DNA from: Opitutales bacterium
GTDB lineage: Bacteria > Verrucomicrobiota > Verrucomicrobiia > Opitutales > Oceanipulchritudinaceae
Direction: 5' to 3'
Length of the DNA: 53,886 bases
Assembly: GCA_020831485.1 (NCBI GenBank)
Contig: JAFIGG010000016.1
Span: 1-53,886 of the forward strand
The position numbers were made by a program, and so were the translations under genes. Of the stretch, positions 11,614 through 51,601 are shown in pieces. Position 1 is the stretch's first letter. Each line of letters starts with the position of its first letter. Below the pieces are notes generated by a model, which made no database searches, was not told the DNA's origin, and saw only the letters and a program-made list of their open reading frames with translations.

Positions 11614-11630
11614 GTGCGCTGCGATAGTAG

Positions 11631-11746
11631 GTGGCGGACGGGCGATAGCCCTTCGGGGAACGATCCAACCAGACCCTACTCCGAGGCGCTGTCGCGCGCC
11701 CGCCACTCAAGGCTCCGAGGCGTTGTCGCGCGCCCGCCACTCAGGG
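11631..11746. repeat. REP-like palindrome cluster, family 2 (three copies)
   Basis: The + copy at 11631-11655 reads GTGGCGGACG, then hairpin GGGC-GATA-GCCC overlapping it, then TTCG. The - copies at 11682-11706 and 11716-11740 read GTGGCGGGCG with hairpin GCGC-GACA-GCGC (one stem base altered in the last), then CTCG. The two - copies sit in a tandem 34-bp direct repeat (11679-11712 and 11713-11746) that differs at two positions. The same head and hairpin occur at 49383-49407 and 49693-49717. Confidence 0.75.
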
Positions 11747-48975: not shown

Positions 48976-49001
48976 AAAAAAAACGGCCCGAATTGGGCCG
49001 C
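48976..49001 (-). terminator. Rho-independent terminator between rpmF and plsX
   Basis: On the - strand CGGCCC and GGGCCG pair around a five-base AATTC loop, followed by eight T residues (positions 48976-48983). It lies 31 bp after the rpmF stop and 24 bp before the plsX start, so much rpmF transcription should end here. Confidence 0.85.
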
Positions 49002-49031
49002 GCAAGGACAAATTGAACTGCTCAAACGACG

Positions 49032-49208
49032 TTATTCAACGTCGATCACTTGGCGGCCACGATACATGCCGTTGGCAGGATTGACGCGGTGAGGACGGAA
49101 CAGAGTGCCGTCGGTCGGGTCGGTCGCCAGTTGCGGAGCGGAAAATTGATTGGCACCCCGCCGTTTGCGGGAGCGCTGCTTGGACTGTTTACGTTTCGGT
49201 TGTGCCAT
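49032..49208 (-). CDS. rpmF: 50S ribosomal protein L32
   Basis: 58 residues: MAQPKRKQSKQRSRKRRGAN at the N-terminus, then a Pro-His-Arg-Val-Asn core, ending in RQVIDVE. Length and basic N-terminus are typical of L32, and its position before plsX and fabH is conserved in many bacteria. The Cys residues of zinc-binding L32 forms are absent. The upstream DUF177 (YceD) gene usual in this locus is missing; a repeat-rich gap replaces it. Confidence 0.92.
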   Translation of the reverse strand: MAQPKRKQSKQRSRKRRGANQFSAPQLATDPTDGTLFRPHRVNPANGMYRGRQVIDVE

Positions 49209-49287
49209 GATGGGTTCCGGTTAGAAAATCGATTAGGAAAAACGTGAGATGCAAGATGCTTCCAGTGAGGAGGTCAAGCGCAATGTT

Positions 49288-49369
49288 TGGTGGAATGGTG
49301 GAAGAGTGGATGGTGGAATGGTGGAAGGGTGGGCTGTGAGGCGGTGTTTCTGTGGGCTGTGAGGCGGTG
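49288..49369 (+). repeat. Tandem GGTGGAATGG-type and GTGGGCTGTGAGG-type repeats
   Basis: A 17-bp unit (TGGTGGAATGGTGGAAG) occurs at 49288-49304 and 49311-49327. An 18-bp unit (GTGGGCTGTGAGGCGGTG) occurs at 49329-49346 and 49352-49369. Both are G-rich on this strand. They lead directly into the left arm of the inverted repeat at 49374. Confidence 0.75.
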
Positions 49370-49373
49370 GGTG

Positions 49374-49726
49374 GTGAGATTGGTGGCGGATGGGCGATAG
49401 CCCTTCGTCGGGCCTGGGGGTTGGTTGGAGAGAGCCCTTTAGGCCGAATTGCGGGGCGGGGCTGGGGGATCTCAGATTTGAAATGGCGAAGCCAGGTAGG
49501 GCCCGGTTCGCCGAACCGGCCGTTCATCGTAATGGAGACTGCCTGTTCGATCCAGTCCGATAACAATCGAAAGGCATTGGCTGTGCCGATGGGGCGGTTC
49601 CTTTCGGCGAAAGGATCCCTACCTGCTTGGTCACCCATATCCTGAATCCACCGCATCCAATATTCCAACAATCCATCCTTCCACCACAACAACGAAGGGC
49701 TATCGCCCATCCGCCACCAATCTCAC
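49374..49726. repeat. Nested inverted-repeat element with REP-like palindromes (families 2 and 3)
   Basis: Identical 35-bp outer arms (49374-49408 and, inverted, 49692-49726) each contain a family 2 palindrome (GTGGCGGATG, hairpin GGGC-GATA-GCCC, TTCG). Inside are two inverted family 3 copies: 49494-49521 (AGGTAGGG, stem CCGGTTCG-C-CGAACCGG) and 49597-49624 (on -, AGGTAGGG, stem TCCTTTCG-C-CGAAAGGA). An open frame crosses the segment on the - strand but is low-complexity and overlaps rpmF, so I do not call a gene. The 545-bp gap between rpmF and the ABC genes therefore holds repeats only. Confidence 0.8.
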
Positions 49727-49753
49727 CGCCTCACCGCCCACAGTCCCCCCGCC

Positions 49754-51601
49754 CTACGCTTCTTCAACCAGCTGGCGGTAGAGGCTTGCGTATTGGCCGT
49801 TGGCTTTGAGGAGTTCGTTGTGGGAGCCACTTTCGATGATTTTTCCCTGGTCGAGGACGATGACTTTGTCGGCGTTGCGGATAGTTGAGAGTCTGTGGGC
49901 GACGATGAAACTGGTGCGGTTTTGGGTGAGTGCGGCCAGGGCTTTTTGCAGGCGGGCTTCGGTGACGGTGTCGACTGAGGCGGTGGCTTCGTCGAGGATC
50001 AGGATGCGGGGGTCGGCGAGCATGGCGCGGGCGAAGCAGATCAGCTGGCGTTGGCCGAGTGAAATACCGGTTCCGCGTTCGCCGACGATGGTTTGGTAGC
50101 CTTTGGGCAGGCTGTCGATGAGGTCTTCGAAATCGAGGGCGCGAACGGCTTGGTGAACTTCTTCAACACTGGCATCGGGTTTGCCGAGGCGGATATTGTC
50201 GATGATTGTGCCTGAGAATAGAAAGTTGTGCTGGGCGACGAGTCCAATCTGGCTGCGGAGGGAATCGCTGCGGATGCGGCTGATGTCATAACCGTCGATC
50301 TCAATCTTGCCGCTGCCGGCTGGATAGAACTTGCTGATCAGGTTGATCAACGTGCTTTTGCCGCTGCCGGTGTGGCCAACCAGGGCCATGGTTTGGCCGG
50401 GTTCGACCTCGAAATCAATGTTGTCCAGCACTGGCGTTTTTCCGTCGTACGAAAACCCGAGGTTTTGGAAGGACACGCGGCCTTTGATGGGAGGCAGTTC
50501 GATGGCGTCTTCGGGGTCGGAAAACTCTGGCTTGGTATCGAGCAGGCGAAAGATCCGTTCGGCTCCGGCGACGGCGCTGAGCGCGGTGGTGAATTGTCGT
50601 CCGAGGCTCGGGATCGGCGAGAAAAACAGATTGGACAGGAAAAAGAAGGTGACCAGATCGCCAACCGCCATGTTCCACTCGGGATTCAGAACTCCGTAAC
50701 CGCCGACGATCACGATCATCGCGATGAAAAACTGTGAATTCAGTTCCAGTATCGGTAGATACAGGGCGACATTGCGCGCCAGCCCCATGTTGTAGCCGGA
50801 GTGGTCTTTGATCAACTCGCGGAACAGGTCCGCGTTGCGTTCTTCCCGGGCAAAGCCCTGGGTGACCTGAATGCCCTTCACGCTCTCGGCGACCGTTGCC
50901 GTTACGCGGGAGAAGCTGGCCTGAAGCAGGCGGGAAGATTCACCGATGCGGCGACTGAAATAGCGGTTGATCAGAAAGATTATCGGAGCCATCCCGGCGA
51001 TGATCAGGAACAGGACAAAATTGTAGTAAGCCATCAGTATGCCACTGCCGATCATTTGGCCGAACTGGACCAGACTGACGAAAATGACGTTTTGAGCGCC
51101 CATTCGCAGGGCTTCCAGGTCTGAGGTAATGCGGGAGATGATGCTGCCCAGACGGGTACGCTGGTACCAGGAGAGCGGCATCTTCATGAGGTGTTCGAAA
51201 ATCGCGTTGCGCAGGTCATAGGCCACCCATTCGCCGAGCTCGAGCGCGTAGCGTTGACGAAAGTGCATGGTCACCTGGGTGATAAGGGCCAGTAAACCGA
51301 ATCCGGCCGCACCCCAGAGGACACCGGCCATGTTGCCAGCGGCAATCGCACCGTTGATGACTGCACCGATTGCCCAGGCCAGCGCTGGAATCTGGATCGA
51401 ACGCAGGATTACCGCCAGGATCAGCAGATTGCGCTTCAGGCGGTAGGGGCGTGTCCAGCTGAACAGGCGAACAAATACTTTGACGTCAAATTTCCGCAGA
51501 CCGCGCTCGTGGGAAAAACGGTCGTCGGTGGTGTCGGACGGCCGTGCCAGCGACAGGTCCTGGCGCACTTCTTCCCGAGGCTTGTTGTCGGCCTTGCTCA
51601 T
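49754..51601 (-). CDS. ABC exporter half-transporter, catalytic-Glu subunit
   Basis: 615 residues: a six-helix membrane domain (about 60-370) and a nucleotide-binding domain. Walker A is GHTGSGKSTLINL, Walker B LILDEATASVD with the catalytic Glu, and the switch His is in VAHRLST. The signature is ISLGQRQ instead of LSGGQ. A preceding start overlap of 4 bp with the neighbouring half-transporter suggests the two form a heterodimer. Substrates could be lipids or drugs. No regulator is nearby. Confidence 0.92.
   Translation of the reverse strand: MSKADNKPREEVRQDLSLARPSDTTDDRFSHERGLRKFDVKVFVRLFSWTRPYRLKRNLLILAVILRSIQIPALAWAIGAVINGAIAAGNMAGVLWGAAGFGLLALITQVTMHFRQRYALELGEWVAYDLRNAIFEHLMKMPLSWYQRTRLGSIISRITSDLEALRMGAQNVIFVSLVQFGQMIGSGILMAYYNFVLFLIIAGMAPIIFLINRYFSRRIGESSRLLQASFSRVTATVAESVKGIQVTQGFAREERNADLFRELIKDHSGYNMGLARNVALYLPILELNSQFFIAMIVIVGGYGVLNPEWNMAVGDLVTFFFLSNLFFSPIPSLGRQFTTALSAVAGAERIFRLLDTKPEFSDPEDAIELPPIKGRVSFQNLGFSYDGKTPVLDNIDFEVEPGQTMALVGHTGSGKSTLINLISKFYPAGSGKIEIDGYDISRIRSDSLRSQIGLVAQHNFLFSGTIIDNIRLGKPDASVEEVHQAVRALDFEDLIDSLPKGYQTIVGERGTGISLGQRQLICFARAMLADPRILILDEATASVDTVTEARLQKALAALTQNRTSFIVAHRLSTIRNADKVIVLDQGKIIESGSHNELLKANGQYASLYRQLVEEA

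Follow-up and report, generated by a model that had tools for sequence, protein, structure and literature searches.

A repeat locus occupies the 545-bp intergenic gap (49209–49753) between rpmF and an ABC exporter gene in the window, i.e. the whole 53.9-kb stretch of DNA that was analysed, which is contig C65 of a 3.86-Mb genome in 142 contigs (G000, the own genome). Both genes are encoded on the same strand, one on each side of the repeats. The placement between these genes given in the initial annotation holds for rpmF, which passes its model cutoff and is followed by plsX and then fabH (NCBIfam identities). The exporter scores below the TIGR02203 cutoff, so that only its superfamily is certain. 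Among the best 80 of 226 matches, its nearest named relatives come from metagenome assemblies labelled Kiritimatiellae (69%) and Opitutaceae UBA6669 (62%, best segment). The features are as follows:

49032–49208, minus strand: rpmF (L32; RpmF of 58 residues), TIGR01031 65.1 bits against a cutoff of 22.6
49288–49333, plus strand: G-rich tandem units (TGGTGGAATGGTGGAAGAGTGGA), comparable stretches of which recur at other places of the genome (repeat and genome search)
49354–49408, plus strand: left outer arm, 35 bp perfect at 49374–49408, 55 bp at 85% (inverted-pair search)
49383–49407, plus strand: outer REP of the second family, GTGGCGGATGGGCGATAGCCCTTCG, 0 mismatches to the family pattern
49495–49623, plus strand: REPIN, GGTAGGG ... 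CCCTACC, 129 bp (about 134 bp with similar flanking bases), 8 full copies in the own genome
49495–49519, plus strand: left REP, head GGTAGGG, stem CCGGTTC/GAACCGG, 3-nt loop GCC (sequence reading and dimer scan)
49599–49623, minus strand: right REP, inverted, head GGTAGGG, stem TCCTTTC/GAAAGGA, loop GCC (sequence reading, dimer scan, covariation)
49692–49746, minus strand: right outer arm, perfect 35 bp at 49692–49726 (inverted-pair search)
49693–49717, minus strand: outer REP of the second family, inverted, identical to 49383–49407 (arm comparison and pattern match)
49754–51601, minus strand: MsbA-like ABC exporter half-transporter, best model TIGR02203, 437 against a cutoff of 602

The outer 55-bp pair is the longest inverted pair listed for the window. 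Its perfect part was described initially as identical 35-bp inverted arms enclosing about 280 bp and preceded by G-rich tandem units; the arms are indeed 100% complementary, 283 bp lie between them, and the tandem units are present. The inner pair reads GGTAGGG-C-CCGGTTC-GCC-GAACCGG on the plus and GGTAGGG-A-TCCTTTC-GCC-GAAAGGA on the minus strand, in agreement with the two inverted palindromes that had been noted to have the same AGGTAGGG head and centre and different stems. G-rich, TGGTGGAATGGTGGAAGA-like stretches are found at many places in the genome (C86, C130, C118, C55 and others), and on C118 and C119 they lie beside the second REP family.

A search of the own genome with the inner 141 bp returned 14 matches, 8 of full length (including the query itself) and 6 partial. 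A covariance model built solely from the 8 full copies (R1) scores its source copies at 128–144 bits, followed by fragments and a weaker, shorter family. Alignment of the 8 copies reveals common heads, hairpins and a near-constant spacer length, and flanks that differ and are in many cases unrelated. A REPIN is a REP doublet forming a hairpin (Bertels and Rainey 2011, PMC3116915), and the inner element combines inverted REPs at a fixed distance, a GT(A/G)G head with a palindrome, multiple dispersed copies and a RAYT in the same genome. The initial annotation had suggested a look for target-site duplications. At the ends of the 8 REPIN copies none was found that convinces: repeats of at least 4 bp are missing in 6 of 8 copies and measure 5 and 4 bp in the other two, and the mean direct repeat is nominally a little higher for own pairs (1.1) than for 56 cross-paired flanks (0.5). 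A Y1 transposase is expected to leave no such duplication (IS200/IS605, PMC2817692). By eye, a T follows CCCTACC in the flanks of 7 of 8 copies, which places a CT at the 3′ edge of the REPIN. TnpAREP of E. coli and S. maltophilia is reported to bind the single-stranded GTAG-headed hairpin and to cut at a CT dinucleotide (PMC8266576); by analogy, the CT at the REPIN edge may be the cut site.

In DNA folding, the stretch 49490–49630 is more stable than every one of 200 shuffles, whichever strand is folded (z about −4.5); the single inner hairpins folded alone exceed shuffles only weakly, 15 of 200 being equally good. The compensating changes claimed initially are present in the right hairpin, where 3 pairs are changed on both sides among the 8 copies (gathered by DNA similarity), and absent from the left hairpin, which has no double change. 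In the right hairpin the double changes amount to 5 cells, a figure that none of 500 shuffles attained (1.0 ± 0.9); as many as 3 doubly changed pairs occurred in 17 of the 500 shuffles.

The wider population was addressed with a single-REP model (R2), made from REPs of G000, G048, G014 and G033. As these were picked for their perfect hairpins, their pair counts are no independent test. R2 detects at least 115 single REPs in the own genome at E ≤ 0.1 (best 150 of 2614 candidates scored). The matches listed fall into 75 clusters, of which 27 are simple head-to-head pairs, and 28 of 31 head-to-head neighbours span 84–87 bp, the rest 95, 104 and 126 bp. A direct scan of fetched own-genome stretches yielded 32 head-to-head dimers (24 of 84–87 bp and 8 of 126–130 bp); its REP rows were taken from R2 matches plus a hairpin score, so their stems were selected to pair. 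Within own-genome loci fetched for their repeats, GGTAGGG is followed by a perfect hairpin of at least 6 bp at 34 of 55 sites, compared to 25 of 893 sites for 41 permuted heads scored in the same loci. The REPs are locally concentrated on contig C59 (57.7 kb, L251–L259), which holds 19 of the 115 GGTAGGG REP matches listed on 1.5% of the genome.

The same REPINs flank RAYT genes. A 164-residue open reading frame on C16 has a window-family REPIN on each side and passes the NCBIfam model for REP-associated tyrosine transposases (NF047646, 89.8 bits, cutoff 80); its Pfam Y1_Tnp score (PF01797) is 21.2, just under the cutoff of 23, and its one clear solved relative is 4er8 ‘TnpArep’ (E 2e-8). A paralogue on C58 (57% identity, NF047646 81.0 bits) is flanked on each side by the shorter REPIN of 84–87 bp. 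The own genome carries two RAYT paralogues, and each has a separate REPIN population. Against the same model the homologue of G048 passes with 95.8, and those of G033 (79.8) and G035 (56.4, cut to match) fall short. The HUH histidines H84 and H86 and the C-terminal tyrosine Y137 are invariant in 7 aligned Y1-type proteins, an alignment that left out G023 (one in-frame TGA) and C92; Y137 is probably the catalytic tyrosine.

This association extends to other genomes. The RAYT of G048, a genome of another family, is 47% identical and has R1-detected REPINs on both sides, and RAYTs with flanking GGT(A/G)GGG hairpins occur in four genomes besides the own one. At an E value of at most 4e-23, a limit set after the result was seen, 6 of 6 RAYT loci, that of G023 among them, show such hairpins on both sides, at 19–113 bp; at the weaker homologue loci (8 of 14) they lie within 300 bp in 2 and are absent in 6. 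No such hairpin occurs in the 94,876 bases of 29 control loci, which are rpmF or ABC regions of relatives, although the majority of these control genomes may be devoid of such REPs. Among 55 genomes, the own one included, 9 have RAYT homologues at E ≤ 1e-10. With the best candidates scored (up to 59 per genome), R1 matches are present in at least 5 of the 55 genomes, close RAYTs (E < 1e-30) in 4, and both in 3 (own, G033 and G048). R1 matches but no close RAYT are seen in G014 and G047; in G023 a close RAYT is present and no R1 match among the candidates scored. R2 matches occur in at least 8 of 55 genomes (best candidates, up to 138 per genome, scored); their co-occurrence with RAYTs is partly circular because R2 was built from REPs of G000, G048, G014 and G033.

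The assignment of inner and outer REPs to two families, as annotated initially, was borne out. Allowing up to 3 mismatches, the pattern GYRGCGRANRRRCGATAGCCNTTCG of the GT(A/G)G-headed outer family has 47 matches genome-wide compared to 0 for a reversed control. Stem positions 9 and 21, to which the pattern was blind, are Watson–Crick paired in 23 of the 31 distinct sequences; shuffles average 9.0 and none of 10,000 reached the observed figure, in a control that takes no account of relatedness. One step further inward the pair is kept in 27 of 31 sequences, and the following one in 11 of 31. Most heads read GTAG or GTGG, in agreement with published REPs (PMC2817692) and with O. terrae GTAG-20 (PMC3733652). 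Close head-to-head pairs of this family number three and span 71, 72 and 75 bp; the outer pair of the window spans 335 bp. Its arms are identical beyond the REP core, and elsewhere in the genome they match mainly over the 25–26-bp REP core or a GGGCTGTGAGGCGGTG stretch, not as a whole. The outer pair is therefore best described as a probable inverted duplication of a repeat-rich stretch, not a second-family REPIN. No RAYT could be assigned to the outer family. A 329-residue Y1-type transposase on C92 was considered as its owner, with a copy of the REP about 110 bp upstream of the gene, and was not assigned because a different inverted repeat, TTTGGTGCCAGGCACT, lies on both sides of the gene (L019, 602–623 and 1786–1807). 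At 11630–11746 of the window, behind another outer-family REP (11631–11655), there is a degenerate partner in inverted orientation, which has undergone a tandem duplication (34 bp, 94%).

Taken together, we attribute the locus with high confidence to a REPIN, probably moved by a RAYT, in an intergenic repeat mosaic between rpmF and the ABC gene. Two inverted GTAG-type REP hairpins bound a spacer and form the core REPIN. As single-stranded DNA, e.g. on the lagging-strand template, the GGTAGGG hairpin would be the target of a RAYT (TnpAREP) encoded at another locus of the genome. This HUH Y1 single-strand transposase would cut near the hairpin and move or copy the whole unit of 129–134 bp without target-site duplication. 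The REPIN presumably landed in a 545-bp mosaic that already held the G-rich tandem units and second-family REPs, one of which may have been duplicated in inverted orientation. Points against this reading are the incomplete overlap of R1 matches with close RAYTs, the 6 weaker RAYT homologue loci that lack hairpins, the Pfam score of the C16 RAYT and the outer family, to which no RAYT could be matched.

The initial annotation read the entire nested structure of about 350 bp as a small non-autonomous mobile element, and this applies to its inner part, the REPIN with its 8 full copies, not to the nested structure as a unit. A composite non-autonomous element bounded by the 35-bp arms would account for their perfect inversion within the longest inverted pair of the window. 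However, the genome search that had been proposed for the 350-bp unit gave no second copy, the best other match covering query 193–343 of 439, i.e. the inner part; the arms recur mainly as REP core or GGGCTGTGAGGCGGTG, and the outer pair far exceeds the three close family pairs in length (335 bp against 71–75 bp). The unit occurring once and the length of its outer pair do not support a single mobile element, and we rejected the whole unit as such; the composite is extremely improbable. In the 54 relatives returned, the 350-bp query finds matches that, among those listed, fall in the flanking genes or the G-rich units (query 327–375). The other initial reading was a BIME, which in the enterobacterial sense consists of alternating REPs in tandem units that act as protein binding sites; it is favoured by the co-occurrence, between two genes, of inverted REPs from two families. 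Here, there is a single inner dimer, the outer pair belongs to another family, REPs do not alternate in tandem and, by eye, the families have little in common apart from the GT(A/G)G head. A BIME is very improbable.

Alternatively, the locus might hold a structure that regulates or terminates the rpmF-plsX-fabH or ABC transcripts and is palindromic by chance. Its position between two same-strand genes would be compatible with such a role, and REPs have been hypothesised to function in transcription termination and mRNA stabilisation (PMC3733652). Against this, positions 49000–49900 contain 0 terminator-like and 0 promoter-like consensus sites (shuffle means 1.0 and 0.5), the copies sit in many unrelated flanks, and no GGT(A/G)GGG hairpin occurs in the relatives' rpmF or ABC loci (29 in number). 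A regulatory or terminator structure is very unlikely. The REPIN probably has no essential role at this site. A look for an empty site, as proposed initially, found none in the relatives. None of the 54 relatives shares the genus of the own genome; their rpmF and ABC matches are on different contigs or far apart, among the matches listed, and no locus of the 31 compared by tblastn (L081, L130, L023–L051; ABC 17, rpmF 14) has both genes.

The reading as an ordinary REPIN in a repeat mosaic is well supported. The element resembles the REPINs described in PMC3116915 in its inverted REPs, conserved ends, near-constant spacer, predicted hairpin with compensatory changes and associated RAYT; it differs in that the inner stems of the two arms are different in 62 of 62 dimers and in the small number of full copies, 8, in the window family. 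Arms that are asymmetric have precedents in the REPINs of enterobacteria (PMC8049555) and in the heterodimers of many families and species (PMC3733652). As in the RAYT/TnpAREP REPtron (Nunvar 2010, PMC2817692), the gene is flanked by inverted GT(A/G)G-headed REPs with a perfect palindrome interrupted by 2–4 bases; unlike there, the head is extended to GGTAGGG with a CCG tail, and RAYT activity is predicted. The perfect stem and the loop starting with G, here of 3 nt, are shared with the group 3 REP of S. maltophilia, where the loop G is required for cleavage in vitro (PMC8266576). The GTAG families of Opitutus terrae are similar in having GTAG REPs with GTGG variants, several families in one PVC genome and family-specific REPtrons (PMC3733652). 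As GTAG REPs, several O. terrae families and heterodimers are already covered there, the present REPIN is not a new kind. That report was found by a literature search for REP-associated tyrosine transposases in Verrucomicrobia; a search for repetitive extragenic palindromic sequences in Opitutus found none, and a wider one for REPINs in the Verrucomicrobia/Opitutus group had none among the matches listed.

The added interest of this genome lies in its two RAYT paralogues, two loop types and widely varying stems. Head and tail are near-constant, loops vary little within a genome and stems vary widely, which provides a natural test of the features a RAYT reads. Stems differ widely within and between genomes, yet CGCTTTC recurs in G000, G048 and G014, which speaks against free stems. 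In the scanned loci the loops are GCC or GAC in the own genome (one GGC), mainly GCC in G048, GAT or GAC in G014, TCC or four-base CCNN in G033, TCCC/TCCT in G023 and TACC in G035. The window family has GAC in 5 of 8 copies, including both flankers of the C16 RAYT, and GCC in 3 of 8, including the window copy; the shorter REPINs have GCC in 47 of 48 arms. The loops of the two arms match in 31 of the 32 own dimers (2000 shuffles average 22.7 and reach at most 29), in part a consequence of family structure, and in 8 of 8 long copies (a 3 + 5 pairing by chance: 1 in 56). Loop matching in G048 (24 of 27) and G014 (2 of 3) is no better than in shuffles.

A tentative and, in our estimate, rather doubtful scheme is that in this lineage recognition by the RAYT may be limited to the head GGTAGGG, the tail CCG and the loop. 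Stems could then drift as long as they pair, and the loop would be a RAYT-specific address; the long family may have split into GAC and GCC forms, the latter captured by the C58 RAYT. Both loops would have to match, and the stems to differ so that each arm folds alone. Should the loop be the address, specificity and switching could be tested directly in a genome that has two RAYTs and two loop types. Identical inner 6-bp stems are found in 0 of 62 head-to-head dimers (32 own, 27 G048, 3 G014). A heterodimer rule was rejected on distinct stem combinations, hand-copied from the dimer scan, for which the probability of zero is 0.19 (17 combinations, G000) and 0.61 (11, G048); the clause that two stems must differ is not beyond chance in these data. 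The REPIN at L244 (C46:13372–13497) shares its long body and its left stem with the window family, but its right stem, CGCTTTC, is characteristic of the shorter one, and it is possibly a hybrid of the two.
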